From: Secundilactobacillus angelensis
GTDB lineage: Bacteria > Bacillota > Bacilli > Lactobacillales > Lactobacillaceae
DNA: 64,000 bases
Reading direction: 5' to 3'
Assembly (NCBI RefSeq): GCF_012641075.1
Contig: NZ_JAAXLJ010000009.1
Location: 1 to 64,000 of the forward strand
Under the pieces are notes generated by a model. The model worked only from the letters and a program-made list of their open reading frames with translations, was not told the origin of the DNA and did not search any database. Every line of letters starts with the position of its first letter. The first letter of the stretch is position 1. Shown here in pieces: positions 18,674 through 42,545 of this stretch. The position numbers were made by a program, and so were the translations under genes.

Positions 18674-19522
18674 TTACTCACGCACCATATCTATACTTTT
18701 CATTAATTCATCTTTTACTTTTTCAGTATCCCATTTCTTCAGGTCGTCCGAAAATGGCTCAAAAGCATACAGACCCTTATAACCGGCAGCTTCAAATCTT
18801 TTTGCCCACTGTGCAGATTCCATAATATCATTTTTATCTAGCATATATCGATCTTGGTCATCCAAAACGTTACGTGCTTTTTTGTCGATAACTGAACTAA
18901 GGTGTACTAAACCAATATAATTAACGTCAACTTTTTCTTCAAATTCCTTTGGTGTCACAGATGCTAAGTAATAATGAAAAGTATCGGCTACTAATTTAAA
19001 ATTATCAACGCCCGACGCTTTAATAACATTCTGCCCTTCCCAAGGGGTTCTTAAGGTACTGTCTTCGAAACCTAAAGGTTCCAGCAATCCACTAACGCTA
19101 TACTTTGCTAATAATTTTGAATATTCTTTAATATTAGCGATTGCCTCTTTTTGTCGTTGTTCAGAACTGCGTGTATCATCCTTTGATCGTACTGGACAAA
19201 AGATAATGTTTTTTAATGAAAAGTCTTTACTCATCTCCAGCATCTCTGTCAAGCTTCGCAAATTATCCTCAATTAAATCACGCTTATCCATGTTACCAAT
19301 AGCGTTAATAGTTTCTACACTTACGTGATTTTCCTTTAATAAGTCAGCCACCTGTTTACCTGAGAGATGATCTAAGATTGTGTTGTTATCAGCACTTCCA
19401 TACAGATCATTACGCAACTCAATATTAGTCACTCCAACACCTGCCACAAGCGGAATTGTTTTCTCCAAAGAAATTCCAGGTGCTGCCTTACGATTTAAAC
19501 AAAATCTATTTAATTCAATCAT
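18674..19522 (-). CDS. IolI-like sugar phosphate/inosose isomerase
   Basis: TIM-barrel protein of 282 residues in the xylose isomerase-like (AP endonuclease 2) superfamily. The order of motifs follows 2-keto-myo-inositol isomerase IolI: IELRNDLYG near residue 35, LLEPLGFED near 148 (metal Glu), LVADTFHYY near 180 (Asp and His), LVHLSSV near 210 and FEPFSDDL near 260. It would interconvert inosose isomers, but the exact substrate is inferred. It is the last gene of a three-gene unit, 12 bases after iolH, and is followed by a strong terminator. Its similarity to IolI is moderate. Confidence 0.75.
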   Translation of the reverse strand: MIELNRFCLNRKAAPGISLEKTIPLVAGVGVTNIELRNDLYGSADNNTILDHLSGKQVADLLKENHVSVETINAIGNMDKRDLIEDNLRSLTEMLEMSKDFSLKNIIFCPVRSKDDTRSSEQRQKEAIANIKEYSKLLAKYSVSGLLEPLGFEDSTLRTPWEGQNVIKASGVDNFKLVADTFHYYLASVTPKEFEEKVDVNYIGLVHLSSVIDKKARNVLDDQDRYMLDKNDIMESAQWAKRFEAAGYKGLYAFEPFSDDLKKWDTEKVKDELMKSIDMVRE

Positions 19523-19534
19523 TTTAGATCTCCT

Positions 19535-20398
19535 TTACAATCCTAAACCCTTTTTAATATTTGGTAGAGTTTGATTATTCGACCAAACCACACGATCAGG
19601 CCAAGCAAATACATTATTTGTAACAATCCCATTAAATTTGATTTCCTTCAGCGCTTGATACATAGCTTCAAAATCCACTTCCCCTTCTCCAGGGTTCAAG
19701 TGTTGATGAATGGTAACTGGTGCTTCTGGAGGATTAATAATATATCTAAGACCAAAATTACTCTTATAGTTCAACGTATCTGCAATTAAAACATGAGTAA
19801 GGACATCTTTACTGCCTAAAATTTGTTTTCGAACATCTCCAACACCACCATCAGAATAAAACGCATGAGCTGAACACCATACTTGGGAAACCCAATCTTT
19901 ATCCAATGACCGAATCAATTTGGCTGCTTCGTCACTAGATTCGATAAAATCGTTGGGATGAGCTTGAATTTCAAGCTTAATATGATTCCTTTCAAAATCT
20001 GGAATTAACTCTTCCATTGATTTGTACCATTGTCCCTCAGACGCCACTGGATTCTGCTTATCACCCGAAAATTCAGTGTTTAGCGTATCAACGCCTAATT
20101 CAGACGTGATTTCAATGGTCCTTCGCATATTTCGAACAGCCGCCTGACGTTCTTGTTCATCAGGGGATGACCACTGTTGAACAGGCAAAACGGAAGATAA
20201 TGCCACGCCAGCGTCATTCAACCACTTCTTAACGTTTTTAATCATTGAAGAATTCACTTTAGGATATTGATAGAACCAAATAAAGTCTTGCCGTGGCGAT
20301 AATTCTATATACTTGTAACCGAGTTTTGCGGTTTTCTCAATCATGTCATGAAATGATGTGTTATCGCGAAACATCGATGGATCATATGCTAATTTCAT
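19535..20398 (-). CDS. iolH: IolH-like TIM-barrel protein (copy 1)
   Basis: The protein has 287 residues, beginning MKLAYDPSMFRDNTSFHDM and continuing YIELSPRQDFIWF, which match the IolH family of inositol operons. Metal-site candidates are NTEFSGD (about 105), EIQAHPNDFIE (about 143), HVLIADTLNY (about 210) and TIHQHLNPGEGEVDF (about 230). IolH has no firmly established reaction; it is a putative sugar-phosphate or inosose isomerase. It lies between a dehydrogenase and an IolI-like gene on one transcript. A close paralogue lies at 26239, with most positions identical by eye. Confidence 0.85.
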   Translation of the reverse strand: MKLAYDPSMFRDNTSFHDMIEKTAKLGYKYIELSPRQDFIWFYQYPKVNSSMIKNVKKWLNDAGVALSSVLPVQQWSSPDEQERQAAVRNMRRTIEITSELGVDTLNTEFSGDKQNPVASEGQWYKSMEELIPDFERNHIKLEIQAHPNDFIESSDEAAKLIRSLDKDWVSQVWCSAHAFYSDGGVGDVRKQILGSKDVLTHVLIADTLNYKSNFGLRYIINPPEAPVTIHQHLNPGEGEVDFEAMYQALKEIKFNGIVTNNVFAWPDRVVWSNNQTLPNIKKGLGL

Positions 20399-20426
20399 TA
20401 AATCTTCTCTTCCTTTCTGTAATAAA

Positions 20427-21440
20427 TTAATAAAGACTTGGCTTCTTGTCAGGCAGAACTATAGCTACTCGTTCGGCATCATTATCACGTGATTTGGCTA
20501 ATGCATCACAAGTTACCATGGCTACCAAACCATCCCAAGAACTTGGCCCCGTAACCTTATCTGCTTCTACGCCGTTAACCCATTCTTGAATTTCATTATC
20601 GTAAGCGGTTGCAAAACGTTCCGTACAATCTTTTGGAATATAGGTCTGGTCATACAAGCCCTTTTTAACCGATGAGTTAAATGGAGAACGTAAGCTAATG
20701 ATACCGTTTTCACAAACAACACTACAATTAATATCGTAGCCAATCTGATCGTTAACAAAGACTTCTAGATCTATATGCACACCGGACTTTGTGTCTAGAG
20801 TAATAATTTGAGGATCATGTAACTTAGAATGAGTATATTTTGTCTGTTTCTTCGGTAGGAAAGTAGTCCCTGATTCATAATCCTCACCCAGCAACCAGTG
20901 TAACACGTCGGCTTCATGGATGGCAGTTTCTATGATTGACATCGAAGTATCATACGTTTCATCAACTGAACAATTACGATGAGTCGCATGGATTAATAAT
21001 GGCTCACCATATACATGGTCGTCGATTGCCTTTTTAATTTCAATATAACCAGGATCAAAACGTCTCATAAATCCAACTTGAACTAGCCGTTTCCCACCTT
21101 TCACTTCAGCATCTACAATTTTTTTACATCCAGCTGCAGTTAAAGTCAATGGCTTTTCACAGAACACATACTTTCCAATTTCAATGGCATGCAGCACAAA
21201 TTGCTCATGTGTCTCATGTGGCCGCGTTACAACCATTACTGCATCAATATCTGGTGAATCAATTAAATCAATACCACTCTTGTAAATCTTGGCTCCATAT
21301 TCCTTAGCATATTTTTCTGCTAAGTCTTGTTTTAAATCCGCTACACCAGCCAACCTTGCCCCGTTAATTTTAGTGGCAACGCGTTTAACATGATCCGATC
21401 CCATAAATCCTAAGCCAATAATACCAATATTCAACGTCAT
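20427..21440 (-). CDS. Gfo/Idh/MocA oxidoreductase, inositol dehydrogenase type (copy 1)
   Basis: NAD(P)-dependent oxidoreductase of 337 residues. The Rossmann motif GIIGLGFMGSDH is at residues 6-17. FCEKPLT near 97 gives the catalytic Lys, and IHEADVLHWL near 172 gives the Asp and His of the inositol dehydrogenase triad, as in IolG. VGFMRRFDPGY is another IolG-type signature. It probably oxidises myo-inositol or an epimer to a ketoinositol. It is the first gene of a unit with iolH and an IolI-like gene, divergent from an AraC regulator. It is paralogous to 24208 and more distant from the canonical IolG at 34016. Confidence 0.85.
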   Translation of the reverse strand: MTLNIGIIGLGFMGSDHVKRVATKINGARLAGVADLKQDLAEKYAKEYGAKIYKSGIDLIDSPDIDAVMVVTRPHETHEQFVLHAIEIGKYVFCEKPLTLTAAGCKKIVDAEVKGGKRLVQVGFMRRFDPGYIEIKKAIDDHVYGEPLLIHATHRNCSVDETYDTSMSIIETAIHEADVLHWLLGEDYESGTTFLPKKQTKYTHSKLHDPQIITLDTKSGVHIDLEVFVNDQIGYDINCSVVCENGIISLRSPFNSSVKKGLYDQTYIPKDCTERFATAYDNEIQEWVNGVEADKVTGPSSWDGLVAMVTCDALAKSRDNDAERVAIVLPDKKPSLY

Positions 21441-21728
21441 AATGAATACCTCCTCAAGGTTAGTTTAAATTATATTTCACAATTAAATTAACATTGATTT
21501 TAGCTATTTTCCATGTACAAAAGTTCCAATTATTTGTAAAAAACAACACTTTGTATATTTATTATTAATGTATATTTTAAATAATATAACTAATAATAAC
21601 GGTTTCATAAGCTCTTTTTATACGAAGGTATTATTGGTGCTTGTAAAATAACACTTCCCTAATATCTTATTAATATTACAGTAGAATTCGATATTTTGTG
21701 ATAATATGAATTTATAGAGGTGACAACC
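21441..21728. promoter_or_regulatory. Divergent control region with a candidate cre site
   Basis: This 288-base, very AT-rich gap lies between the dehydrogenase unit (minus) and the AraC gene (plus). A cre-like sequence at 21594-21607 reads, on the minus strand, TGAAACCGTTATTA, matching TGWAANCGNTNWCA at all but one position. A possible AraC-gene promoter is TTACAG (21676-21681), 18 bases, GATAAT (21700-21705). The layout suggests CcpA repression plus control by the adjacent regulator. Confidence 0.6.
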
Positions 21729-22607
21729 ATGGAAGACTATTCTGCATACATACCGAAAAATGAAGAAGGCAAAACTACACTGCAGGGGCTTTTTTTCAAT
21801 AACCCCTCAAATACTGCAAAAGAGCTATACCTATACCCTCTCTGGGGCGCTGAATATGAAGTCAATTATACTTATCATATCGATCGTCACTATATGAATT
21901 CTTATATCCTTTTTCTGATTGAAAAAGGCAAATTATACTTTACCTTCGATAATAATCAACGTTTTACTGCATCTGAGAATTCTATTGTATTGATGGATTG
22001 CAGAAAACGGAACCAATATCACGCAGAATCAAATTGCCGATTTATGTTTTTTCATTTTAATGGCGTGCAAGTTCAAACCCTGTATGACTATCTCACTCAA
22101 AATCAACAACATCTTTTTACAAGTACAAACCACTTAACAAACCTTTTCATTCAATTAATGAACTTGCTTTCCAAGAACGAATTTACAGGAAACGACTTAC
22201 ATTACTCCGAACTGCTTTATGAAATTCTTATTAACATGACAGCTACCGACATCACAGAACTAGATCGTTCAATATTACATCAGACACCTGAAATAATAAA
22301 ACGAGCTATTGCGTACTTAGACACTCATTACAATGATAGTGTCACAATCGAAGAATTGTGTCGTAAACTAAATATTAGTGCAACACGATTGTCAAAAGAA
22401 TTCAAGACTTATACATCCACAAGTATTCACCACTATCTAATGTTAGTACGACTATCACATGCACAACAACTGCTAACCAGTCGACCGGATCTTAGTATTT
22501 CTGAGATTGCACCTATGTGCGGATTTCATGATTCATCACATTTAAATAAAACTTTTGATAAAGAAATTGAAATGACTCCTAGCAAATTTCGTAAGCTGTG
22601 TTTCTAA
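21729..22607 (+). CDS. AraC-family transcriptional regulator
   Basis: The protein has 292 residues. The N-terminal half looks like a cupin-type sensor (residues about 45-110: ILFLIEKGKLYFTFDN, then NSIVLMDCRKRNQYH). The C-terminal ~100 residues carry two helix-turn-helix motifs: VTIEELCRKLNISATRLSKEF and LSISEIAPMCGFHDSSHLNK, with the typical MTPSKFRK ending. It probably senses a sugar or cyclitol and activates the divergent dehydrogenase-iolH-iolI unit. The ATG at 21729 has AGAGGTG 6 bases upstream; GTG at 21720 lies inside that site. Confidence 0.88.
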   Translation: MEDYSAYIPKNEEGKTTLQGLFFNNPSNTAKELYLYPLWGAEYEVNYTYHIDRHYMNSYILFLIEKGKLYFTFDNNQRFTASENSIVLMDCRKRNQYHAESNCRFMFFHFNGVQVQTLYDYLTQNQQHLFTSTNHLTNLFIQLMNLLSKNEFTGNDLHYSELLYEILINMTATDITELDRSILHQTPEIIKRAIAYLDTHYNDSVTIEELCRKLNISATRLSKEFKTYTSTSIHHYLMLVRLSHAQQLLTSRPDLSISEIAPMCGFHDSSHLNKTFDKEIEMTPSKFRKLCF

Positions 22608-22691: not shown

Positions 22692-23876
22692 CTAGCGTAC
22701 TTTTCTTGTCTGCTGATGTGCCTTAATTGCCTGATTGAGTGCGATAATCAGCACCAGTGCAAGAATAGCAAAAAATGCCGAACCTAACCCAATATTTTTC
22801 AAACCAATCGCACCAGCTAGAATCGATGAAGTAGCAGATCCTAGCGAAATACCAAAGTTAAAGAAAATTGAATTGAGAGAAGAGGCTAAAACAAGAGACT
22901 GTGGATATTCTCGTTCAGCCGTATTTAGAAAATGGATTTGAATTGGGGAGTTAACCAAAGTCACAATAAGGGATAAAATCAGCAAAACGAGTAATCCAGA
23001 AGCTTTCGTAGCAAGTGCTAGTGGGAATGACAGCAATAGTATAATATCGGCAACGTAGTACTTTGGCATAGCCCGTAAGCCATTGTGCTCACTGACAGCA
23101 CCTGACCAGCGATTACTGATAATATTCATAATACCAATAGCAAAAAGTATCATATTAAGATAGTCATTACTGAATCCAAGGACGGTAGTTAGCAATGGCC
23201 GAATATAGGTGTAATACCCATACATAGTTGCTGCAGTGAAAAGCACCAAAAGAATACCCAGATAAATTCGATTATCCTTCAATAAACTCAATTGCCCTTT
23301 AATTGACCCTTGGACCTGTTCAACATGTTTTGGTAGTAGCCATATTAGAAGAAAAAAAGTGATGATGGTGATCCCTGAAACAGCAAAAAAAGCGTATTGC
23401 CACCCATAATTCGTACTAATCATAGTTCCAATTGGGACTCCAAAAACAGAAGCAATACTAAATCCTGCAAAAACCCATGAAACTAGGCTGGCTCGTTTTT
23501 CAATGGGTGCGATAGCTGTCGTAAAAGTCATAATCAGCGAAATAATTGAACCTGCGACTGAAGCAGAAATTATTCTTGATAATAACATCCACCCGTAATT
23601 TGTAGCAAAACCACTTAAGGTATTACCAATCAAAAAAATCACCATTAATACCAAAAGTGTCTTATACCGACTATATTTACTAGTTAATATTGTAATAAAC
23701 GGCGTGCTAACAGCGTATACAGTCGCAAAAATCGTCACCAAATACCCCGTTAGCGCAACTGAAACGTGAAGATGTAAAGCAATGTCTGACAAAATCCCAA
23801 TAACCATAAACTCATTGCAACCTAACATAAATGCAACCAGCACAAATATAATGGTCTGTAATCGATACTTTCTCAT
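22692..23876 (-). CDS. MFS transporter, DHA1 type
   Basis: The protein has 394 residues with 12 hydrophobic helices. FMLGCNEFMVIGILSDIA in helix 1 and the motif-A region FITILTSKYSRYKTL between helices 2 and 3 fit the DHA1 drug or metabolite efflux group (AraJ/PbuE/NepI-like), not the sugar porter group. Such proteins often export sugars, nucleosides or drugs. It is convergent with the AraC gene and ends near it without an obvious terminator, so its link to the cyclitol genes is only positional. The ATG at 23876 has GAGGGTG upstream; GTG at 23885 overlaps that site. Confidence 0.85.
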   Translation of the reverse strand: MRKYRLQTIIFVLVAFMLGCNEFMVIGILSDIALHLHVSVALTGYLVTIFATVYAVSTPFITILTSKYSRYKTLLVLMVIFLIGNTLSGFATNYGWMLLSRIISASVAGSIISLIMTFTTAIAPIEKRASLVSWVFAGFSIASVFGVPIGTMISTNYGWQYAFFAVSGITIITFFLLIWLLPKHVEQVQGSIKGQLSLLKDNRIYLGILLVLFTAATMYGYYTYIRPLLTTVLGFSNDYLNMILFAIGIMNIISNRWSGAVSEHNGLRAMPKYYVADIILLLSFPLALATKASGLLVLLILSLIVTLVNSPIQIHFLNTAEREYPQSLVLASSLNSIFFNFGISLGSATSSILAGAIGLKNIGLGSAFFAILALVLIIALNQAIKAHQQTRKVR

Positions 23877-23912
23877 ATTAGTCACCCTCTAATTATATCA
23901 GGGTCTAGAATA

Positions 23913-24207: not shown

Positions 24208-25224
24208 TTAGTCCTTATATAGTGCGGGCTTTTCAGGCAGGGTGATAGGCTCGCGAACTCCCCCCTCGTCTCTAGATTTACCAAGGGCATCACAGGTCAC
24301 CATCGCAACTAAACCATCCCAAGAGCTTGGACCAGTGATTTGATTTTTTTGTACACCATTTGCCCATTGCTGAATTTCATTATCATAGGCATCTTTAAAC
24401 CGCTCTGTAAATTCTTCAGGAATTGGATCTTCATGCTGAAATTTAGTCTTCACAGACATGTTGGTAGGTGTTTTGAGAGCAATAGTACCTTCTTCACAAA
24501 CAATTTCACAGTTGATATCGTACCCCATGTGATTGTTAACAAAGACCTCTAAGTCAATGTGCACGCCAGATTTAGTATCTAACATTACGATTTGTGGATC
24601 GTGAAGGTTGTCATGAGTGTATTTGGTTTGTTTTTTAGGTAAAAAGGTGATACCTGATTCATAATCTTCTCCGAGTAACCAATGCAATAAATCAGCTTCG
24701 TGGACAGCTGTATTGGATACAGACATTGTTGTGTCATAAGAAGTTGGAACCTCGTAGTTACGATGAGTAGCGTGTACCAGCAAAGGTTCACCATATTTAC
24801 GAGAATCAATCGCCTTTTTCATTTCAATGTAGCCTTCGCCATAACGACGCATGAAACCTACCTGGACTAATCGTTTTCCGTGGTTCAATTCCGCATCAAT
24901 AATTTTTTGGCATTCAGCAACCGTCGGCATCAATGGTTTTTCACAAAAAACGTACTTTCCAGCCTCAATTGCCTGCAATACAAATTGAGAATGTTGATCA
25001 TCAGGAGAAGTAACAACCATAACAGCATCAATATCTGGTGATGCAACTAAAGCTGCTCCACTCTCAAAAGCCTTTGCACCATATTTTTTTGAATATTTTT
25101 CAACTAATTCTGGTTTTAAATCTGCGACACCAGCTAGTTTTACGCCAGAGGTTCTTTCTGCAATTCGCTTTGCATGATCTGATCCCATTGCACCTAAACC
25201 GATAATTCCAACATTTAAAGTCAT
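24208..25224 (-). CDS. Gfo/Idh/MocA oxidoreductase, inositol dehydrogenase type (copy 2)
   Basis: The protein has 338 residues and is closely paralogous to the protein at 20427 (shared VGFMRR, LLHWLLGEDYESG, FLPKKQTKYTH, and GPSSWDGLVAMVTCDAL). The Rossmann motif is GIIGLGAMGSDH, the catalytic Lys is in FCEKPLM and the Asp/His in VHEADLLHWL. It is probably a ketoinositol-forming dehydrogenase with a related but different substrate. It is the last gene of an iolH-isomerase-dehydrogenase unit. The ATG at 25224 has AAGGGG 8 bases upstream; GTG at 25233 overlaps that site. Confidence 0.85.
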   Translation of the reverse strand: MTLNVGIIGLGAMGSDHAKRIAERTSGVKLAGVADLKPELVEKYSKKYGAKAFESGAALVASPDIDAVMVVTSPDDQHSQFVLQAIEAGKYVFCEKPLMPTVAECQKIIDAELNHGKRLVQVGFMRRYGEGYIEMKKAIDSRKYGEPLLVHATHRNYEVPTSYDTTMSVSNTAVHEADLLHWLLGEDYESGITFLPKKQTKYTHDNLHDPQIVMLDTKSGVHIDLEVFVNNHMGYDINCEIVCEEGTIALKTPTNMSVKTKFQHEDPIPEEFTERFKDAYDNEIQQWANGVQKNQITGPSSWDGLVAMVTCDALGKSRDEGGVREPITLPEKPALYKD

Positions 25225-25251
25225 TTGTAACACCCCTTCTAAGATTGTTAA

Positions 25252-26202
25252 TTATTTAATGATTGAATTTTTTAGTGTGTCAATTGAAGTTCTAAGACCT
25301 GCGTCTACGCTCATAGTGAGGTCTTCCATTTCTAGCGAAACAAAGTCGTTATTATAACCTGCCATCCCTAGAACAGAGAAAAATTCACGCCAATATTGCA
25401 GATCATGTCCACAGCCGACACCGACGTAATTCCAAGTACGATTGTAGGAATCAGTGACTGGTTTAGTTTCCATTAAACCATTGACCTTAGCTAGATCCTT
25501 TTCGATTCGTGCATCTTTACCATGGACATGATAAATGGCACCCTTTAAATCTCGAATTGTCGAAATTGGATCAATACCCATGACGAAAAAGTGTGAGGGG
25601 TCTAAATTAATACCGATCGTATCACCAGCGGCCCTCCGTAACTTCAACAAAGTACGCGGATTATAAACCAATTGGCTTGGAAACGCCTCCAACGCAATCT
25701 TTTCAACGCCGTGTTCTTTCGCTAGCTTGCCGGTGTCTTTCCACCACGGAATTGCCACATCCTCCCATTGATACCTGAGAGCTTCAGGCATATAATCTGG
25801 CCACGAAATTGTGGAGCAAATCCAGTTAGGTATAGTGTCGTGAGGCCCACCCGCGGGAAGACCGCTCATTGTGACGATCTTTTTAACGCCCAATTTTTCT
25901 GCCAGTAAGATGGTTTCCCGAATTGTTTTTGTGTGTAATTCCCCAAGTTCACCAGGCGCTAAGGGATTACCTGAGCAGTTTAATGCAGCTAGCTCCATAC
26001 CACGAGCTTCGAGCTCTTTCTTGAATGCTTTCACTTTTCCATTATCTTTTAAAAGAGCCTCACGATCGATATGTGGAGTAGGTTGCCAGCCACCGGCCGA
26101 AATTTCGACTGCATTCAGACCATATTTTTTCTGAACAGTATCAAGCATCTCAGTGTAACTTAAGTCTTTTAAAACGTCTGTCACTAATGATAGTTTCATC
26201 AT
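25252..26202 (-). CDS. Sugar phosphate isomerase/epimerase (TIM barrel)
   Basis: The protein has 316 residues in the xylose isomerase-like superfamily. Putative metal ligands are Glu in VEISAGGWQP (about 35), Glu in ALEAFPSQLVY (about 172), Asp and His in GINLDPSHFFVMGIDP (about 205), His in IYHVHGKDA (about 232) and Glu in SLEMEDLTM near the end. The WQPTPHID and HGKDARI elements resemble proteins annotated as IolE/hydroxypyruvate isomerase relatives, but it is neither IolE, IolH nor IolI. The reaction is unknown; context implies cyclitol or ketose isomerisation. AAGGAGG lies 8 bases before the ATG at 26202. Confidence 0.8.
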   Translation of the reverse strand: MMKLSLVTDVLKDLSYTEMLDTVQKKYGLNAVEISAGGWQPTPHIDREALLKDNGKVKAFKKELEARGMELAALNCSGNPLAPGELGELHTKTIRETILLAEKLGVKKIVTMSGLPAGGPHDTIPNWICSTISWPDYMPEALRYQWEDVAIPWWKDTGKLAKEHGVEKIALEAFPSQLVYNPRTLLKLRRAAGDTIGINLDPSHFFVMGIDPISTIRDLKGAIYHVHGKDARIEKDLAKVNGLMETKPVTDSYNRTWNYVGVGCGHDLQYWREFFSVLGMAGYNNDFVSLEMEDLTMSVDAGLRTSIDTLKNSIIK

Positions 26203-26238
26203 TTGCAAAACCTCCTTGTAAATACATTTAGGCTCAAA

Positions 26239-27105: not shown

Positions 27106-27471
27106 TTTCATTACCTCCCAAAATGTTAATCATGAACACATGTTCAATGTAGCACATGAAACCGCTCCCATGTTTGCAATAAAAAGACTGAAATTTACAA
27201 AAAAGTGCCACAGAGTTTTAAATAAATAGTAACCAAACCATCAATATACGCTTGGTATCGCTGATTTAATGGGGAATTAGGAATAGCACTTATTTTTGTG
27301 GTACAAAATGAAGATTTTAAAAGCGCTTTCATAATTTAGATAACTGGTTATAATGAACCTGTAAATTAATTTACAAAAGAATAAACAACCGAATTTAAGG
27401 GCTTAGTCTCTGAATATACATCAAGTTCCATTCAACGAGGTTTTGCGCTTACGTGGAAACTTTAACAGGCG
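27106..27471. promoter_or_regulatory. Divergent control region with two cre-like sites
   Basis: In this 366-base gap, cre 1 at 27157-27170 reads TGAAACCGCTCCCA (one mismatch to TGWAANCGNTNWCA) and lies in the probable iolH promoter area. Cre 2 at 27318-27331 reads TAAAAGCGCTTTCA (one mismatch). It overlaps the -35 of a plus-strand promoter whose -10 is TATAAT (27349-27354). An inverted repeat TGAACA-CA-TGTTCA (27133-27146) near the iolH start may bind the AraC regulator or another factor. CcpA repression in both directions is predicted. Confidence 0.65.
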
Positions 27472-31138: not shown

Positions 31139-31186
31139 CTGAATATCTCCCCCCTTATTTATCCGGTTTAGGCTGTGTGATTGTGC

Positions 31187-32312: not shown

Positions 32313-32463
32313 CTGAATAAGAGAATTCAGTACCGTATCTGAATACTCACTTTCAAAGGAGAACCGTATCCATTCCGTACCGCAAACGATGTTAAGGGCT
32401 TTAACAACAATCTAAGAAAGATTTACATAGCTTTGAAAACTCCTTAAATTGGGAAAACCTTTA

Positions 32464-33897: not shown

Positions 33898-34015
33898 TTT
33901 CACCTCCGAATATTCAATGATATAGAATAACTATTTTAAATAATTGCTATTTGCAGGCCCTATCTAATTGGAAGGAAGACCTGCATAATCTACATCATCT
34001 TAAGAAACTAACCAA

Positions 34016-35053
34016 CTATTTTGCTGCGTAAAATGCAGGCGTTTCTGGGAAGTCAAGATTTTGTGTTTCACCTTTTTGATCAATAGACTTCAGCGCTGCA
34101 TCAGCGGTAACAGCTGCAATATATCCATCCCAAGATGAAGGACCAACTGGTGATTCATTCTTTGAAACATGATTAATAAAATCACGGAATTCAATATCAT
34201 AAGCACTTTCAAAGCGTGCCTTCCAATCGGTTAAAATAGCTGTGCTATATTGAGCATTCAAACGCGTAGCAACTTGTGGCACAGTTGGCAGTTCAAGTAC
34301 CCCTTCTTCACCGATGACATCGCACTTAATATCATAACCATACTGACAACGAACAAAGACTTCAATACTGATATTAATTCCCGTCTTAGTCTCCATCATA
34401 ACAATCATTGGATCCATGATATCTTTATTCTGAGCATGGCGTGTTTGCTTAGCAGCAAATACCCGAATGTTCTTATAATCATCGTTAATCAACCAGTGAT
34501 CCAAATCAATTTCATGAATAGCAGTTTCAATAATTGAACGAGATGTATCGTATTCCTCAGGTTGAGTCTGGTTATAATGACGTTCATCAATCATTAATGG
34601 ATTACCAATAACACCATCATCAATCATTTTCTTCATTTGTACATATTCAGGAGCATAGTGACGCATGAATCCAACTTGTAGCATACGACGACCAAGCTTC
34701 TTTTCAGAGTCAATGATATCCAAACATTGTTGTGCATCAAGTGCTAATGGCTTTTCACAGAATGTGAATTTCCCTGCAGCTAATGCAGCCATCACGATTT
34801 CATAGTGTGCCTCATTGCTTGCAGTACATACAACCACTTCTACATCTGGATCATTAACAAGATCATGATAATCAGAATAATCTTTTGCTTTTAATCCTAA
34901 TTTATCAAGTTGCTTCTGTGCCTTACCTGGCACAATATCACAGACTGCTGTGACATCAACGTTTGCAACGACCTTTGATAAACGATGCAGATGATCTGAA
35001 CCAATAAAACCAATACCAACAATACCTACTTTTGTTACATGTGTTTCAGCCAT
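34016..35053 (-). CDS. iolG: Inositol 2-dehydrogenase
   Basis: NAD-dependent oxidation of myo-inositol to 2-keto-myo-inositol (scyllo-inosose), the first catabolic step. The protein has 345 residues. The Rossmann motif is GIVGIGFIGSDHLHR, the catalytic Lys is in FCEKPLAL (about 100) and the Asp/His pair is in AIHEIDLDHWL (about 178-184). VGFMRHYAPEYVQMKK and GPSSWDGYIAAVTADA follow Bacillus IolG closely, more so than the other five family members in this window. It lies directly between iolE and iolT. The binding site AGAGG precedes ATG by 9 bases. Confidence 0.92.
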   Translation of the reverse strand: MAETHVTKVGIVGIGFIGSDHLHRLSKVVANVDVTAVCDIVPGKAQKQLDKLGLKAKDYSDYHDLVNDPDVEVVVCTASNEAHYEIVMAALAAGKFTFCEKPLALDAQQCLDIIDSEKKLGRRMLQVGFMRHYAPEYVQMKKMIDDGVIGNPLMIDERHYNQTQPEEYDTSRSIIETAIHEIDLDHWLINDDYKNIRVFAAKQTRHAQNKDIMDPMIVMMETKTGINISIEVFVRCQYGYDIKCDVIGEEGVLELPTVPQVATRLNAQYSTAILTDWKARFESAYDIEFRDFINHVSKNESPVGPSSWDGYIAAVTADAALKSIDQKGETQNLDFPETPAFYAAK

Positions 35054-35074
35054 AATGCATACCTCTTTCTTTTT

Positions 35075-35980
35075 TTAGTTTTTACCCAATAATTCTTGAT
35101 CGATATACTTTTTAGCTTTCAAAGCATATTCCAAAGGATTTGCCTTGTCAGGATCTTGTTCGGCTTCGACAACAATCCATCCTTTATAACCATGGTCAAT
35201 TAATTCTTTGTAAACTGGCTTAAAGTCAAGATTACCATCACCTGGAACCGTAAACATACCATTTAAGAATGAACCTTGGAATGTCAAGCCTCTTTCACGG
35301 CTGTCCTTTTCCTTATCAAAACGGACATCCTTAAAGTGAACATGCACAACACGATCAATATGTGCTTTTAATAAGCTCATGTAGTCACCATCGGAAACAG
35401 CAATATGACCTGTATCATACAATAAACCAACCTTCTTAGGATCAGTGTTTGCCATTAAGCGGTCGGTTTCTTCCTTAGTCTGAATAACAGTACCCATATG
35501 ATGATGATAAGCTACCTTGATACCATACTTAGCTGCAATGTCACCATAGTGATTAAGACCTTCGCAAACCTTATCCCACTCTTCGTCGTTCATGTGATAC
35601 TTGTCAGTGAAAATATTCTTCGAGTCAGATTGTTGAATTGTATGGGTTTGTTCAGAAACAACTGCCACTGGAGCGTGAACCGCTTTCAAAAATTGGCAAT
35701 GTTTTTCGAATGCTTCACTAGCTTTGTCAATACCGTCGCGCAGAATGAAGCTACTAAACCACTGACCGGCAATCTGTAAATTACGAAGCTTAAGTTCATA
35801 GTTTAACTTATCAGGGCCTGGGAAAAAGCCACCAACTTCGGTACCTTGAAATCCTGCTACTACAATATCACTTAATAATTGCTGTAAATTATTATCTTTA
35901 CCGATTGAAGGAATGTCATCATTACGCCAACCAATTGGAGCAATACCCCATTTAATATCTTTACTTGGATCATATGCCAT
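35075..35980 (-). CDS. iolE: Inosose dehydratase (2-keto-myo-inositol dehydratase)
   Basis: Metal-dependent TIM-barrel dehydratase that turns 2-keto-myo-inositol into a diketone (3D-trihydroxycyclohexane-1,2-dione), the second step of inositol catabolism. The protein has 301 residues. [54 protein letters not shown] and [15 protein letters not shown] are diagnostic for Iol[11 protein letters not shown] and [11 protein letters not shown] complete the metal and substrate sites. It is 21 bases from iolG. The next enzyme, IolD, is not encoded in the window. AGGAGG provides the binding site. Confidence 0.94.
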
Positions 35981-35999
35981 AACTAAAGACCTCCTAAAA

Positions 36000-37028
36000 T
36001 TAAATATCTTGAACCTTCACTTTTTGACCTGTTTCCAAAGACTTTTTAGCCGCCTGAGCTAGCCTAATTGCCTTTATGCCATCCTCAAATGAACACTCAA
36101 CTGGTGTATCATTCAAAACCGCATTGAAGAAGGACACTAATTCATTAAAGTATGCATCCACATACCTTTGAAGGAAAAATAACATTGGCTTATCACCACG
36201 AGTTGACTCGCTACCCGAATAGGTAGTTGTACTATTCAGCACGTTGTCCGCGTGTGCCATACCCTTAGAACCAAACAACTCAATTCGTTGGTCGTACCCG
36301 TAAACAGCTTTCCGACTATTATCTATTGATCCAACCATGCCATTCTTGAAAAACAATGTGGTAAGCGCTGTATCAATATCTCCAGCTTCACCAATCTTTG
36401 GGTCAATCATCACTCCACCAGCGACAAACACAGAATCAACTTCCTCACCGGAAACGAATCGCGCAATGTCAAAATCATGAATTGTCATATCCATGAAAAT
36501 GCCGCCAGACCGCTTAACATAATCCATCGACGGTGGTTCTGGATCTCGTGACGTAATCTTCAGAATTTGTTCATCACCAATTTGTCCTTGATTACGATAA
36601 TCAACAATCCTTCTAAAGTTTTTATCAAATCGTCTATTAAATCCTACTTGAAATTTAACGTGCGATTCCTTCACAACTTTAAAAGCCTTCAAAATTTCAT
36701 TGTCATCAAATCCTACAGGCTTTTCACAAAAAATATTTTTTCCTGCTCGAGCCGCATCAATAGTCATTTGCGGATGAAGATCAGTAGGCACACACAACAT
36801 CACAGCTTGTACATTGGCATCCGCAAGAACCTCATGATAATCTTTAACTATTTTTCCTGCCAGTGGATATTTTTTGTTCCACTCGTTAGTTGCGACAATG
36901 TCACAAATATAAGCAATTTCAACATTAGGCATTTTTTGTAGGTTTTTATAATGAACATTACCAATACGACCCATGCCAATAATACCGATTGTGATTTTTT
37001 TCTTTGTGAATAATGAGCTATCAGCCAT
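36000..37028 (-). CDS. Gfo/Idh/MocA oxidoreductase, scyllo-inositol dehydrogenase-like (copy 4)
   Basis: The protein has 342 residues. The Rossmann motif [15 protein letters not shown] is near residue 14, FCEKPVGF near 102 and [10 protein letters not shown] near 130. The active-site segment is [18 protein letters not shown], with Arg in place of the IolG His. It is the first gene of the iolE-iolG-iolT unit and probably lets the cell feed scyllo- or another inositol epimer into the same ketoinositol. It has its own strong promoter. AAAGGGGTG lies 5 bases before the ATG. Confidence 0.85.
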
Positions 37029-37196: not shown

Positions 37197-37248
37197 TGTA
37201 AGCGATTTATAAGTGCGTGTTGACATTCACAAGTTGTCGTGAAATAAT
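37197..37248 (+). promoter_or_regulatory. Strong promoter with embedded operator dyad and cre-like site
   Basis: TTGACA (37220-37225), 17 bases, AATAAT (37243-37248). The spacer holds an inverted repeat, TTCAC (37226-37230) with GTGAA (37239-37243), which fills it almost exactly, so a bound protein would block RNA polymerase. A weak cre-like sequence, TGTAAGCGATTTAT (37197-37210, two mismatches), lies just upstream. The promoter reads toward the 37568 transporter, giving a long leader of about 310 bases that contains a direct repeat of CGTTCTGATTA near 37310-37333. A TATAAT at 37548-37553 lies too close to the start codon to be a normal -10. Confidence 0.65.
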
Positions 37249-37567: not shown

Positions 37568-39037
37568 ATGATGACCAAACTAAGCGCGGAAAATCAGCTG
37601 GGTAGTTCTAGTGATCAGCAGACTAATTCTGTTGCTGAAAAACGTGCAAAATATCATTTACAAAGAACAGCGCTAATATCAACCCTTGGTGGGTTGCTAT
37701 TTGGTGTCGATACTGGAGTAATTAATGGTGCAATTGGTTATATGGCAACTCCCTCTGAGTTAAATCTAACACCTGGTGATGAAGGCTTGGTGACTAGTGG
37801 AATTACACTTGGAGCTGCTGTAGGGGCAGTTTTTGCTGGTAAAGTTTCCGACTTAATTGGTAGAAGACGTCTATTAAAGTATCTTGCAATTGTATTTTTC
37901 ATTTGCACGCTTGCATGTTCCATTGCTCCCAATGCTATTTTTATGATTATTTTCAGAACTTTACTTGGCCTTGCCGTTGGAGGAGCCTCAGTAATAGTGC
38001 CAACCTATTTATCTGAAATTTCAACGCCTTCCATTCGTGGCCGCCTTGTAACACAAAACGAATTAATGATTGTAACGGGACAGCTATTGGCATTCGTTGT
38101 TAATGCAATTTTAGGAAATGTGTTTGGCTATGTTTCCCACATTTGGAGATATATGATTGGGTTTGGTATGATCCCAGCTATACTACTATTTATTGGTATG
38201 TTCTTCGTTCCAGAATCTCCAAGATGGCTCGTAATGAAGGGCAAAGTTCAAGAGGCTTTTAAATCCTTATCAACACTTCGAGCACAACCTGAATCATGCA
38301 AAACTGAAATCAGTCAAATCCAAAATGCACTTGATCAGGAAAAGGAAATTAAGCAAGCAACACTAAAGGACTTAACTACACCTTGGGTACGTCGACTTGT
38401 CTTTATTGGTATTGGTCTCGGTGTGATGCAACAATTCATCGGCATAAACATTATGATGTATTATGGAACAACTATTCTGACTCAATCTGGCTTTGCACAC
38501 AATGCCGCCCTCATCGCTAATATTTTTAATGGCATAGTTTCTGTCGCAGCCACGATTATTGGCATGTCTTTGATGAACAAGGTTAATCGGCGCAAGATGC
38601 TAACGTCTGGAATAATTGGTACCACAACCTCATTGGTTTTAATTGTTATAGTTTCAGAAACTATGTCAAAATCACCGATTTTACCAATTCTAGTTGTGGC
38701 ATGTACGATGATGTTCCTTGGCTTTTTCCAAGGATTCATTTCTCCACTTGTATGGCTTCTTCTATCTGAAATTTTCCCACAGAATTTACGAGGTCTCGGT
38801 ATGGGTGTGTCAACGTTTTTCCTTTGGTTCTCAAACTTTTTAGTTGGGTACTTTTTCCCGATTCTTTTATCAGGTCTTGGAATGTCGTACACATTCATGG
38901 TCTTCGTTTTCTTCAACATTTTATCTTTCTTCTTTGCCTACAAATTTACCCCGGAAACACGAGGCAAATCGCTAGAGCAGATCCAAATGGAATTTCAATA
39001 TGGTGACAAATCTGGAGTCAATCCAGAATCAAAATAA
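37568..39037 (+). CDS. Sugar porter family MFS transporter, IolT-like (copy 3)
   Basis: The protein has 489 residues and 12 helices. Motifs: AGKVSDLIGRRR, PESPRWLVMKG, MQQFIGINIMMYYG and TPETRGKSLEQIQ. It is clearly in the sugar porter family but diverged from the two other copies; for instance LVTQNELMIVTGQLLAF stands where they have MNQ. It heads a plus-strand unit with a dehydrogenase, UPF0303 protein, MDR oxidoreductase and nucleoside hydrolase, so its substrate may differ (another cyclitol, or a sugar/nucleoside-derived compound). The ATG has GGAGATG upstream. Confidence 0.87.
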   Translation: MMTKLSAENQLGSSSDQQTNSVAEKRAKYHLQRTALISTLGGLLFGVDTGVINGAIGYMATPSELNLTPGDEGLVTSGITLGAAVGAVFAGKVSDLIGRRRLLKYLAIVFFICTLACSIAPNAIFMIIFRTLLGLAVGGASVIVPTYLSEISTPSIRGRLVTQNELMIVTGQLLAFVVNAILGNVFGYVSHIWRYMIGFGMIPAILLFIGMFFVPESPRWLVMKGKVQEAFKSLSTLRAQPESCKTEISQIQNALDQEKEIKQATLKDLTTPWVRRLVFIGIGLGVMQQFIGINIMMYYGTTILTQSGFAHNAALIANIFNGIVSVAATIIGMSLMNKVNRRKMLTSGIIGTTTSLVLIVIVSETMSKSPILPILVVACTMMFLGFFQGFISPLVWLLLSEIFPQNLRGLGMGVSTFFLWFSNFLVGYFFPILLSGLGMSYTFMVFVFFNILSFFFAYKFTPETRGKSLEQIQMEFQYGDKSGVNPESK

Positions 39038-39065
39038 TTTTTTTCACGAAAGGGAGTTTTTTATT

Positions 39066-40091
39066 ATGAAACAGATCCATGCAGGTATTATTGGTTTAGG
39101 CAGAGCTGGGCAAATGCATCTAAATAATTTGTTAATGATGCCCGAAATCAAAATTGTTGAAGTAGCCGATGTTTTTATTGAAAACATCTCTGAAAAATTA
39201 AATAACCTGGGGTTAACCAATCAGACTCGGGATTATCATGAGTTGTTAAACAACCCTGAAATCGATACTGTATTCATTTTTACATCAACTGATACACATG
39301 AGGAGATTGTTACAGCAGCTGCTAAAGCTGGTAAGAATATTTTCTGTGAGAAGCCTCTAAGTATGAACTTACACGAAGAAGCCAGCTTAAATGTCTTAAA
39401 GGCAGTCAAAGAAGCGGGAGTAAAGTTACAAATTGGCTTTAATCGTCGAATGGATCCTCAATTCAGAAATATTTACGAAAATGTCCGGAATGGAAAAATT
39501 GGGACTCCACAAGTTGTAAAAATTACTTCTCGGGATCCTGACTTGTTGCCTCATGACCTAATCCAGCGTATTGGTGGGTTGCTTTTCGATTTCACGATGC
39601 ATGATTTTGATATGGCTCGCTACATGATGAATAGCAATATTTCTGAGGTATACGCTAAAGGAGGCACTCTTATTGATCCAACGTTAAAAGATATCAATGA
39701 TATTGATACTCTAGCCTTAGTTCTCCAGTTTGAAAACGGAGCGTATGGATTAATCGATAACAGCCGAAAAGCTGTCTACGGATACGATCAACGGGTTGAA
39801 GTGTTTGGATCTGAAGGTATGTTAAAAGCCGAAAACGTTAGTGACAGTACGGTGGAATTGTATAACGATAAGCGAATTGAATTGCAAAAGCCACTACCAA
39901 TGTTCCAAGAACGTTATAAGCCAGCATATATCGCTGAAATGAAAGCATTTGTAAACTCCATCTTAAATAATGAACCAGTAGTCGCCGAAGGCCGTGATGT
40001 TGTTATGGCTCAACGAGCTGCTGTTGCCGCACAAAAATCAATTGAAACTGGGGAACCTCAAAAGGTTGATACGAGTTACCCACTAGAATAA
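39066..40091 (+). CDS. Gfo/Idh/MocA oxidoreductase, scyllo-inositol dehydrogenase-like (copy 5)
   Basis: The protein has 341 residues. The Rossmann motif is AGIIGLGRAGQMHLNN, the catalytic Lys is in FCEKPLSM, the signature is GFNRRMDPQFRNIY and the active-site segment is TMHDFDMARYM with Arg in place of the IolG His. It is closest by eye to the 31187 protein (shared TSRDPxLLxxxLIQRIG, YAKGGTLIDPTLK and EVFGSEGMLKAENVS). It probably oxidises an inositol or sugar delivered by the 37568 transporter. The frame is open 22 codons upstream, but ATG at 39066 has AAAGGGAG 9 bases before it and starts at the expected N-terminus. Confidence 0.85.
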   Translation: MKQIHAGIIGLGRAGQMHLNNLLMMPEIKIVEVADVFIENISEKLNNLGLTNQTRDYHELLNNPEIDTVFIFTSTDTHEEIVTAAAKAGKNIFCEKPLSMNLHEEASLNVLKAVKEAGVKLQIGFNRRMDPQFRNIYENVRNGKIGTPQVVKITSRDPDLLPHDLIQRIGGLLFDFTMHDFDMARYMMNSNISEVYAKGGTLIDPTLKDINDIDTLALVLQFENGAYGLIDNSRKAVYGYDQRVEVFGSEGMLKAENVSDSTVELYNDKRIELQKPLPMFQERYKPAYIAEMKAFVNSILNNEPVVAEGRDVVMAQRAAVAAQKSIETGEPQKVDTSYPLE

Positions 40092-40112
40092 TTTTATTAT
40101 GGAGGATTAATT

Positions 40113-40577
40113 ATGTTGAGTGCTGAAGAAATTCTAAATCAAGAAACTGAAACTACACTGCCCCACTTTGGACTATCAGATTTAAACGATTTTGTTGATT
40201 GTTTACAAAAAGTTGGTAAAGATGACTACGAAAAAGTATGTGTTTTAATTAAATTAAACAAGCGTCCTGTCTTCTTTCACGCTGGAAAATTTACTACGAA
40301 CGAAAACAACATCTGGATCAGTAAAAAAGAAAAGGCCGTTGATTTATTCGACCATTCGTCACTCTATGAGAAAGCAATCAATCTTAACAATGAATCAGAG
40401 TTCTTTACGTCTAGTGGATTATCACCAAAAGATGTGGCCATTGTTGGTGGCGGTCTTCCAATCTTTGTTGCTGATACTGGTATTGTTGGCAGCTTGATAA
40501 TCTCTGGTTTAACAGACGAAGGCGACCACAATCTTGGCTATCAAACGCTCGTAACATTCAAAAAAAGTTTGCAGTAG
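40113..40577 (+). CDS. UPF0303/HbpS-like (GlcG-type) domain protein
   Basis: The protein has 154 residues and matches the UPF0303 group of the heme-degrading/GlcG-like superfamily (PF03928). The main signature is IVGGGLPIFVADTGIVGSLI followed by SGLTDEGDHNL (about residues 111-142). The biochemical function of the group is uncertain; relatives bind small ligands or heme. It lies between a dehydrogenase and an MDR oxidoreductase with short gaps, so it is part of the operon, perhaps as a binding or chaperone-like helper. GGAGG is 7 bases before ATG. Confidence 0.8.
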   Translation: MLSAEEILNQETETTLPHFGLSDLNDFVDCLQKVGKDDYEKVCVLIKLNKRPVFFHAGKFTTNENNIWISKKEKAVDLFDHSSLYEKAINLNNESEFFTSSGLSPKDVAIVGGGLPIFVADTGIVGSLIISGLTDEGDHNLGYQTLVTFKKSLQ

Positions 40578-40592
40578 AAAGTAGGCATGTCA

Positions 40593-41528
40593 ATGAAAGC
40601 ATTTGGAATAAATCAATACGGTAATTCACATGTTATGCAGGAATATGAATTACCGACTCCCAAAATTGGTGCGGATGAAGTTTTGATTAAAACTGCTGCT
40701 TTCGCCATCAACGCTTTTGACATTTCTGTTCGAAATGGTACTTTCAGAGATAGAGTGACACTTCTGTTCCCATTTATTCTAGGCTCAGACGCGATTGGAC
40801 GAATCGTGAAAGTGGGCAGAAATGTTAATAATTATCATGTAGGCGACGATGTAATGGCACATCCCGGTTTAGGAACCTATGCTGAATATTTTAAAGTTTC
40901 ATCAACTCATTTAGGACTGGTACCCAATAACGCTGATCCGAATACAGTTGCTGGTCTCCCACTGTCAGGAATAACGGCTTATAATGTGCTTGTTCATGCA
41001 GCCCAAGTTCAATCGGGTCAGACCATTGCGATTCTTGGAGCAGCTGGCGGAGTCGGATCGTTACTTGTACAAATGGCAAAGGCTATGGGACTCTATGTAA
41101 TTGGAACCGATATTTCAAGTACAAAAAACCGAGTGCTCGCAAATGGTGCTGATGAATTTGGTGGTTATGATAACGAGACCGTCAGACAGAAATTTTCTCG
41201 TGTTGCAGATGTCTTAATCGATGCCACCAATAACGGTGTCGGTGGAAAAGCTGGCATCGAGATAATCAAAGACAACGGCACATATGTCTCTTTAACAACG
41301 CTACCAGCGGAGAAGTATACAAGACCTAATGTATTCTTTAAACAAGTCGTTCCCAATCCAAAATATCTTGACAGTGACGCATTTTTTGCAATTTCTCTAA
41401 TGATTAGAAACAACCAGCTTCATGTCCCAATTGATCGGATTAAAGCCTTCACTCTAAATGGCATCATCGAAGGACAGGAGATCGTTGAGAATAACCTTTC
41501 AGATGGAAAGGTTATTATTAAAATCTGA
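40593..41528 (+). CDS. MDR-superfamily oxidoreductase (quinone reductase-like)
   Basis: Zinc-independent medium-chain dehydrogenase/reductase of 311 residues. The N-terminal GroES-like part has FILGSDAIGRIVKVG (about 58-72), and the Rossmann motif ILGAAGGVGSLLVQMAKAMG lies near 150. It lacks the catalytic zinc cysteine/histidine pattern of alcohol dehydrogenases, fitting NADPH:quinone or enone reductases. In this operon it could reduce an unsaturated or diketone intermediate formed from a cyclitol (inference). The ATG at 40593 has AGTAGG 7 bases upstream; the ATG at 40587 is too close to that site. Confidence 0.84.
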   Translation: MKAFGINQYGNSHVMQEYELPTPKIGADEVLIKTAAFAINAFDISVRNGTFRDRVTLLFPFILGSDAIGRIVKVGRNVNNYHVGDDVMAHPGLGTYAEYFKVSSTHLGLVPNNADPNTVAGLPLSGITAYNVLVHAAQVQSGQTIAILGAAGGVGSLLVQMAKAMGLYVIGTDISSTKNRVLANGADEFGGYDNETVRQKFSRVADVLIDATNNGVGGKAGIEIIKDNGTYVSLTTLPAEKYTRPNVFFKQVVPNPKYLDSDAFFAISLMIRNNQLHVPIDRIKAFTLNGIIEGQEIVENNLSDGKVIIKI

Positions 41529-41615
41529 TTTCATTAAACGTAAATATCTTGCCATAAAACCTTAAATTAACTATTATTAATGTTAAAACATTATAATATT
41601 TCGGGGGATTGTGTT

Positions 41616-42545
41616 ATGGAGGATGTTATTATTGATTGTGATCCGGGCCATGATGATGCTATTGCATTAATTTTAGCTGTTTACTCCAAAAAGATTAATT
41701 TGCTTGGGGTCACGACTTCTGCAGGGAATCAAAAACATAGCCAAACACTTAGAAACGCCATGTCGTTACTAACTTTAATGAAGGTTCACTCTGTACCGGT
41801 CGCTTCCGGGAATCGAACGCCATTATTAAGGACATTAGTATCTGGTGTTGCAATGCACGGAATTACTGGTCTAGATGGTGCTGAATTGCCTAATCCTGAC
41901 TTTCAAGCAGAAAATTTACCTGCAATCGAACTAATTGCGAAACTTGTTTCTGAGAATCCGAATGAGATTACATTAGTTATTACCGGTCCATGTACCAATA
42001 TCGCATTATTTTTAGCAGTTCATCCGGATTTAAAATCCAAGATTAAACAGTTAGTTATTCTTGGCGGCGGCATGGGAGTTGGAAATTGGGGACCAACAAC
42101 TGAATTTAATTTTAAAGTTGACCCTGAGGCCGCAAAGATTGTCATTAATTCTGGAATTCCAATCGTCCTGGCACCATTAAATGTGGGCTTTGAAGCACAA
42201 CTTCTGGATGAAGATTTAAAAAGAATCCATAAAGTCAAAAACCCTGTTGGCAAAACTGTCGCTGGCCTGACTGACTTTTACGGGATGACCTTTGATCTTC
42301 ATTGGAATTTTGAAGGGCTACCAATGTATGATCCATGTACCATTGCATGGTTGATTGATCCGACAAAGTTTACTAGCAAAAAATGCAATGTTGATATTGA
42401 AACAAAGGGTGAATTAACTGCCGGCGAATCCTTAATTGATTATTACAATATCACTAAAGACAAACCCAATTGCAAGGTCCTCTTTCATATTGATAGAGAG
42501 TGGTTCGCTGATTTGGTTCTCCAAGCAGTGAAATCCTTTGATTAA
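41616..42545 (+). CDS. Nucleoside hydrolase family protein with altered active site
   Basis: The protein has 309 residues in the inosine-uridine nucleoside hydrolase family. Calcium-site motif DCDPGHDDAIAL is at residues 6-17, and ITGPCTNIALFL and TTEFNFKVDPEAAKI carry the ribose-binding Asn/Glu/Asn/Asp. The family's C-terminal HDP motif (catalytic His) reads YDPCTIAW here (about residue 235), so the His is replaced by Tyr. It may use a different leaving group or a different glycoside. It ends the plus-strand unit, 87 bases after the MDR gene. The ATG at 41616 has GGGGGA upstream; the frame opens 12 codons earlier without one. Confidence 0.83.
   Translation: MEDVIIDCDPGHDDAIALILAVYSKKINLLGVTTSAGNQKHSQTLRNAMSLLTLMKVHSVPVASGNRTPLLRTLVSGVAMHGITGLDGAELPNPDFQAENLPAIELIAKLVSENPNEITLVITGPCTNIALFLAVHPDLKSKIKQLVILGGGMGVGNWGPTTEFNFKVDPEAAKIVINSGIPIVLAPLNVGFEAQLLDEDLKRIHKVKNPVGKTVAGLTDFYGMTFDLHWNFEGLPMYDPCTIAWLIDPTKFTSKKCNVDIETKGELTAGESLIDYYNITKDKPNCKVLFHIDREWFADLVLQAVKSFD

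Follow-up and report, generated by a model that had tools for sequence, protein, structure and literature searches.

A mobile cyclitol gene cluster of Lactobacillaceae that may take the first two inositol steps and then depart from the Bacillus route

The described systems closest to the locus studied here are the iolA-J genes of Bacillus with their Lactobacillus casei form, the IolM-IolN-IolO route of Thermotoga, which degrades inositol without IolD, and the lp_3604-3615 genes of Lactiplantibacillus plantarum WCFS1. We analysed a 64,000-nt stretch of Secundilactobacillus angelensis DNA (the window; host genome 2.6 Mb, 99.98% complete), in which positions 18674–42545 hold a cluster of putative cyclitol genes. 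With the Bacillus and L. casei systems the cluster shares porters, IolG-type dehydrogenases, an IolE dehydratase (E) and accessory TIM barrels, but its genome lacks IolB, has IolC and IolD matches only under the cut-offs, carries the genes H, Q and N instead, and shows no conserved kinase or aldolase. Inositol degradation without IolD is the point of likeness to Thermotoga, as is the finding that PDB 3ezy, presumably the Thermotoga IolG, is the closest match of two dehydrogenases, D3 and D5; the cluster genes nevertheless fall far under the cut-offs for IolM (Q, 38.5 versus 450 bits) and IolO (T4, 49.6 versus 300 bits), and we rejected this route on those scores, which cover the cluster genes and these two enzymes. 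We put the probability at about 45% that the locus is a mobile Lactobacillaceae cyclitol system that takes the first two inositol steps and then departs from the Bacillus route. Our best reading of it is a transferable, IolD-independent cyclitol module in which the chemistry after IolE is inferred.

The L. plantarum locus has been annotated as a myo-inositol cluster, with iolT1, IolG, IolE and further dehydrogenases named in the accessible text of PMC11066574. It differs in how it has been published, namely, in the portions available, as annotation, proteomics and a preliminary correlation in which H, Q and N are not described as partners. The accessible strain-gene table of PMC11263657 lists iolE, four iolG, two iolT and rihA_1 with no link drawn among them, and the partly available open-access literature yielded no description of an H-Q-N partnership with an inositol cluster. 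Judging from Lactiplantibacillus genome G589, where rhamnose- and sorbitol-like neighbours were recognised by eye, lp_3604-3615 is probably the same cluster as that of the window.

The right-hand part of the cluster comprises a minus-strand group, A-D3-P2-D4-E-D5 (30173–37028), and a plus-strand group, P3-D6-H-Q-N (37568–42545), as follows:

30173–31138, minus strand: A, AEC-type carrier, over Pfam PF03547 and under TIGR00946
31187–32209, minus strand: D3, inositol 2-dehydrogenase, over the TIGR04380 cut-off
32464–33903, minus strand: P2, sugar porter, over TIGR00879, 71% identical to P1
34016–35053, minus strand: D4, IolG-type dehydrogenase, part of the conserved core
35075–35980, minus strand: E, IolE myo-inosose-2 dehydratase, over the TIGR04379 cut-off
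36000–37028, minus strand: D5, inositol 2-dehydrogenase, over the TIGR04380 cut-off
37220–37248, plus strand: promoter-like TTGACA-17-AATAAT with the inverted repeat TTCAC-N8-GTGAA (37226–37243) in its spacer, upstream of P3
37568–39037, plus strand: P3, sugar porter, over TIGR00879
39000–40091, plus strand: D6, inositol 2-dehydrogenase, over TIGR04380, true start probably about 39066
40113–40577, plus strand: H, UPF0303/HbpS-like protein, present in 10/10 genomes with IolE and without IolD among 251
40587–41528, plus strand: Q, MDR-family (quinone-oxidoreductase-like) oxidoreductase
41580–42545, plus strand: N, RihA-like nucleoside hydrolase homologue, YDPC in place of HDPC

The first two inositol steps are predicted from homology. 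E reaches 374.5 bits against TIGR04379 (IolE, cut-off 290), nearly matches PDB 3cny (572.8 bits), which we take to be IolE of L. plantarum WCFS1, and is 64% identical to the IolE of a Peribacillus plasmid whose annotation includes iolB, iolC, iolD and iolE. It retains the residues that are invariant in IolE from IolD operons: HHHMGT (HHHLGT in Bombilactobacillus mellis), DTGH, HFKD and EAEQDP. Three dehydrogenases pass TIGR04380 (IolG, cut-off 355 bits), D3 at 360.7, D5 at 421.2 and D6 at 380.8 bits, and all three carry the Lys, Asp (Asp172 numbering) and His of Bacillus subtilis IolG, presumably its catalytic residues. The original prediction, that iolG and iolE are recognisable here, is thus upheld.

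Over-annotation is an unlikely alternative in which inositol is not the substrate, and E, the dehydrogenases and the porters work instead on aldoses or on other sugar alcohols such as D-arabitol. It finds some footing in the three remaining dehydrogenases D1, D2 and D4, which stay under the IolG cut-off (174.7, 181.4 and 176.4 bits), come closest to NF052679 below its cut-off (388.7, 389.7 and 410.9 versus 540 bits) and replace the Asp by Glu (D1 and D4) or Asn (D2), although PDB 3ec7, titled putative dehydrogenase, likewise has Glu at this position. Also counting against inositol is a correlation of lp_3604-3615 with growth on D-arabitol across 42 L. plantarum strains (PMC3271238), whose accessible text leaves inositol testing unstated. 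The same correlation, in that text, extends to lp_3619-3622, a sorbitol cluster close by, which makes linkage a possible explanation of the association. Over-annotation is further opposed by the equivalog scores of E, D3, D5 and D6 for inositol enzymes, by the invariant residues kept in E and by an 82%-identical E homologue in an IolD-IolJ operon.

Of the enzymes that follow these steps in Bacillus, IolB, IolC and IolD are not recognisable. No IolB was matched in the host genome or in 14 genus-mates (41 genomes searched), and the best matches in the host genome reached 174 bits for IolD (cut-off 715) and 170 bits for IolC (cut-off 300). The best IolC candidate adjoins uxuA and scores higher on the IolC model (170.7 bits) than on the model for 2-keto-3-deoxygluconate (KDG) and 2-keto-3-deoxygalactonate (KDGal) kinases (144.7 bits), both under cut-off; going by its neighbours, we read it as a KDG kinase. 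IolA and IolJ were absent from the scanned cluster genes, neither having been searched genome-wide. The genome is therefore without recognisable enzymes for the 5-deoxyglucuronate route, and we rejected a classical iol operon elsewhere in it: the predicted lack of iolB, iolC and iolD extends to the whole genome, where the complete operon that would have contradicted the prediction was not found as far as these three genes are concerned. With E alone, the cluster falls outside the definition in PMC9430895, which, in its accessible text, counts only clusters with at least three of iolB, iolC, iolD and iolE; if our reading is true, surveys of this kind overlook such clusters. As a separate observation, genome G132 (genus g9, L113) has iolB, iolC, IolD, an IolJ-like gene and iolA with no IolE over cut-off, a mirror image of the window cluster.

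Export into a housekeeping route elsewhere, either classical iol or hexuronate degradation through mannonate and KDG, is very improbable and largely refuted as a general exit. The host genome does have a hexuronate locus at about 91900–100600 (G000:C1, L094) with a sugar kinase (by eye), the PfkB kinase read as KDG kinase, uxuA and uxaC; what prompted us to consider this exit was the presence of uxaC, uxuB and uxuA close to the cluster of Lactiplantibacillus modestisalitolerans. UxuA is, however, present in only 2 of 13 cluster genomes, the host included (one of the 13 is 87% complete), and we rejected the hexuronate exit as a general route because the other 11 lack it; together with the missing IolB and the sub-threshold IolC and IolD, this speaks against the suggestion that the product is handled elsewhere.

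The genes that accompany E in the absence of IolD are consistent. In a sample of 251 Lactobacillaceae genomes, with IolE and IolD counted over curated cut-offs, IolE occurs in 14, IolD in 5 and both in 4. The ten genomes with IolE and without IolD span five genera (g1; g38, Furfurilactobacillus; g44; g47, Loigolactobacillus; g52, Lactiplantibacillus). H was found in 12 of the 251, namely all of these ten together with G180 and G233, and N at ≥62% identity in exactly the ten; N homologues of ≤58% identity occur in 54 other genomes, and four of the ten hold a second homologue too (47–55%). Q adjoins H or N in each of the ten, the only genomes of the sample in which it was sought. Where IolE stands alone, P3-D6-H accompanies the core D5-E-D4-P, and in 13/13 cluster genomes read Q and N do so too. 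Both arms diverge from a single intergenic region where they share a contig, and lie on separate contigs of draft assemblies in G189 and G231. E was present in four of 21 Lactiplantibacillus genomes, and the three of these that do not belong to the 251 each have P3-D6-H-Q-N (a search made without IolD); within Secundilactobacillus the distribution is patchy, with E in 2 of 15 genomes. Fisher tests on these co-occurrences give very small values but ignore relatedness and are not usable as probabilities.

Clustering of the genes of 23 loci and of window positions 8001–54000 (six genera; thresholds of 40% identity and 60% coverage) yielded families spanning six genera for the dehydrogenases, porters, E and H, five for Q and N, four for T2 and T1, and three for D7 and R1. 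No family of kinases, aldolases or aldehyde dehydrogenases was common to at least three of the six genera, in a comparison that is blind to replacements under 40% identity and in which some loci end near the cluster. Taken with the 2/13 count for UxuA, this places the usual exits to glycolytic carbon outside the conserved set. A small DMT-type transporter adjoins P2 in Lactiplantibacillus and Furfurilactobacillus clusters (L155, L158, L083 and L145).

N resembles the pyrimidine ribonucleoside hydrolase RihA, passing the RihA model at 440.7 bits (cut-off 433), and differs from it at one motif: all 14 cluster copies (10 + 4) read YDPC, whereas 20/20 non-cluster homologues with DNA available for reading have HDPC. 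We take the His of HDPC to be an active-site residue with a leaving-group role. The Asp-rich DCDPGHDD is present in the ten aligned cluster copies, which makes N look like a functioning hydrolase with altered leaving-group chemistry, as far as its residues indicate. Cluster N proteins form a separate orthologue group, ≤58% identical to other homologues. Among 395 order-wide genomes, three N matches were obtained at E-value ≤ 1e-115 (the host's own, G126 and G105), and that of G105, at 57% identity, reads HDPC; this draw holds fewer close relatives than the 251 sample and so says little on rare N carriers. In Loigolactobacillus and one Furfurilactobacillus genome a small protein adjoins N (L108, L110), the L108 copy being weakly LsrG-like (31 bits, cut-off 135).

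Plasmids and phylogeny both point to mobility. A search of 72,556 plasmid records (E counted at ≥80% identity, N at ≥60%) found E in 12, eight from L. plantarum and four from Ligilactobacillus salivarius; H in the same 12 and in one record labelled Comamonas; and N in the eight L. plantarum records and the Comamonas-labelled one. On a 38-kb mobilizable plasmid of L. plantarum X7022 the order T2'-T1-T2-D1-R1-(DMT)-P2-D7-D4-E-D5-P3-D6-H-Q-N lies between IS256 and IS30 elements. In the tree of E proteins the window copy groups with those of B. mellis and Companilactobacillus baiquanensis and not with that of the genus-mate Secundilactobacillus odoratitofui (support 0.913; several deeper nodes weak), as expected for transfer. 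We also considered E as a separate enzyme clade of IolD-less clusters and rejected this, because in the tree the E of B. mellis, which occurs with IolD, falls inside the group. Eleven IolD-bearing L. salivarius records differ from the four with E and H, and an L. salivarius strain with iolA, B, D, E, G and I is reported in the accessible part of PMC7752859. Separately, record NZ_CP101749.1 (22,995 bp, labelled Comamonas sp. C11, mixed culture) contains relatives of E, T2, H and N at 53–76% identity, with T2 and N in pieces, and looks like an error-rich Lactobacillaceae plasmid under a wrong organism label.

The spacer upstream of P3 holds an operator-like element whose 12-mer recurs in 7 of 9 compared gaps (shuffle maximum 3). 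Its exact form, TTCAC-N8-GTGAA, occurs once in the window and in 24/158 loci; the 12 longer loci that could be placed (L020, L022, L077, L078, L087, L090, L108, L145, L148, L155, L157 and L158) each have one copy, situated in the gap from D5 to P3 or immediately ahead of P3; in S. odoratitofui a further copy lies at the 5′ end of the D3 frame. One-mismatch forms are not enriched in the window (2 matches versus 3.02 expected), so the weight of the operator lies in its conservation between genomes only.

Such conservation bears on the idea that the locus is the remnant of a decaying iol operon that has persisted by chance, H, Q and N being mere passengers. The classical core is indeed gone, and the L. 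plantarum pathway or operon has been called incomplete in the accessible parts of PMC6459948 and PMC9159523. Yet gene content and open frames are largely alike over six genera and plasmids, with the operator in most, and the L. plantarum proteins respond together in the available data: five of the lp_3604-3615 proteins, listed in a single table, increase 3.4 to 5.1-fold in flow biofilms (PMC11066574), and under cadmium four decrease 2.2 to 6.9-fold (PMC5430759). We therefore consider decay highly unlikely; the "incomplete" pathway of those two reports becomes a defined transferable block with named candidate enzymes.

Several observations weigh against our own reading. None of the four L. salivarius plasmids with E and H matched N, and one of them (L146) has an aldo/keto reductase in place of Q, so that Q and N are not obligatory. 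H occurs without IolE over cut-off in G233, and a weak H (42%) lies away from iol genes in the IolD-bearing Bombilactobacillus genome G180. The exact operator form is absent from the Furfurilactobacillus and L. salivarius loci. The E proteins are one family that has moved between genera; the counts are not independent, and the co-occurrence therefore partly reflects a single inherited block. Because the 82%-identical E of B. mellis sits in an operon with IolD, E itself gives no hint of a new function, and the reductive step suggested for Q derives from its family membership alone.

With these points weighed, an undescribed IolD-independent inositol pathway, carried by plasmids among lactobacilli of food and gut, in which a protein of the UPF0303 family (H), an MDR reductase (Q) and an enzyme of nucleoside-hydrolase fold without its leaving-group histidine (N) would process the IolE product, is a tentative proposal that we set somewhat short of an even chance. 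By homology, P1–P3 would import the polyol, the IolG-type dehydrogenases would yield inososes, and E would dehydrate 2-keto-myo-inositol to the cyclic diketone. The cassettes D1-T2-T1 and T4-T3-D2, of kinds that accompany complete iol operons, presumably feed in stereoisomers. The diketone might then pass to H, Q and N without ring opening by IolD and without phosphorylation and cleavage. In the simplest version, dehydration would be followed by reduction, with Q (a role suggested by its family) and one spare dehydrogenase reducing the enolised diketone; the cyclitol would be used chiefly as an electron sink, with export of a deoxy-cyclitol or a similar product. We favour this version for three reasons: oxidoreductases abound, none of the conserved steps yields energy, and several cluster-bearing genera are heterofermentative and profit from electron sinks. 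A bolder alternative would be ring opening by N or H. The evidence thus favours "a different route", one of the possibilities originally raised, and offers H, Q and N as the candidate parts that had been left unnamed. The locus is likely a new form of inositol metabolism with a chemistry that is so far a proposal. If true, it would give a common plant polyol a new fate, and H (UPF0303) and N (a re-tooled nucleoside hydrolase) their first metabolic functions; the fate of inositol in lactobacilli becomes directly testable.

The rest of the cluster comprises the minus-strand groups T1-T2-D1 (18674–21440) and D2-T3-T4 (24208–27111), R1 and P1-R2 on the plus strand, and an MFS gene:

18674–19522, minus strand: T1, TIM barrel related to PDB 2q02/4hgx (177 bits), with kin in complete iol operons
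19535–20398, minus strand: T2, TIM barrel of ketose-3-epimerase-like fold, 88% identical to T4
20427–21440, minus strand: D1, IolG-type dehydrogenase with Glu where B. subtilis IolG has Asp172
21720–22607, plus strand: R1, AraC-family regulator
22692–23885, minus strand: MFS transporter of the drug/sugar efflux type, possibly a member of the system, uncertain
24208–25233, minus strand: D2, IolG-type dehydrogenase, 69% identical to D1, with Asn at the Asp172 position
25252–26208, minus strand: T3, TIM barrel, nearest solved folds SCO6571 (2zds) and 2-hydroxy-3-keto-glucal hydratase (8ro4)
26239–27111, minus strand: T4, T2 paralogue
27472–28911, plus strand: P1, sugar porter, over TIGR00879
28924–29826, plus strand: R2, AraC-family regulator

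In all, 18674–42545 codes for six Gfo/Idh/MocA dehydrogenases, five AP_endonuc_2 TIM barrels, three sugar porters, one AEC carrier and two AraC regulators. The original prediction had these types and their coordinates right and overlooked the MFS gene at 22692 as well as H, Q and N at the right end. It also spoke of a 24-kb supercluster; from the paralogue identities (T2/T4 88%, D1/D2 69%, P1/P2 71%, D3/D6 59%) this is a core with duplicated peripheral cassettes, a local assembly of modules that are found apart in other genomes, two of them paralogous.

Relatives of the peripheral genes accompany complete iol operons. The operon of G158 (L093), in what we take to be the L. casei order, contains iolA, iolB and iolC (over cut-offs), IolD, two dehydrogenases, IolE and IolJ, then T1 (37%) and T2 (70%) relatives, and D4 (40%) and D7 (48%) relatives also lie inside it. 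A single run in B. mellis joins IolD and IolJ to relatives of A, D5, E, T1, T3 and T4, and iolB, iolC and iolA come before it. The Peribacillus plasmid is a further case, its T1 relative being weak (21%). Together with the scores and residues of E and the IolG proteins, this gene company supports cyclitols and fits the earlier suggestion that the region interconverts and funnels them.

Structures predicted for T2 and T3 (mean pLDDT 72.3 and 73.7) were compared with the PDB. The T2 model best matches D-tagatose/D-psicose 3-epimerases (TM-score 0.72–0.75), with IolI (1i60) at rank 27 and the 3-keto-glucoside 4-epimerase YcjR at rank 35, a predicted fold in keeping with inosose isomerisation. For T3, SCO6571 (2zds) comes first and 8ro4, the 2-hydroxy-3-keto-glucal hydratase, second (TM-score 0.72, 18% identity), the latter being the closest match of characterised function. 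A 3-keto-glycoside route, for which one dehydrogenase and two TIM barrels are the usual set, could be read from this second match, from the YcjR match and from a weak match of E to 8ro4 (41 bits). We think it improbable, since D2 is nearest to B. subtilis IolG (its best match, 311 bits), related T and D types sit in complete iol operons, T2 folds best on the 3-epimerases, and many barrels of the superfamily fit the T3 model nearly as well as 8ro4. The equivalog models for the glycoside 3-dehydrogenases BT_2158 and BT_2159 gave the cluster genes at most 65.8 (cut-off 750) and 88.8 bits (cut-off 650). As predicted models, the T2 and T3 matches settle no substrate; T4-T3-D2 may serve a related one. 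In Oceanobacillus oncorhynchi (L025) and B. mellis (L023/L092), T3 is accompanied by a separate Gfo/Idh/MocA gene and by a second IolE-like protein, only distantly related, an arrangement that hints at another substrate route.

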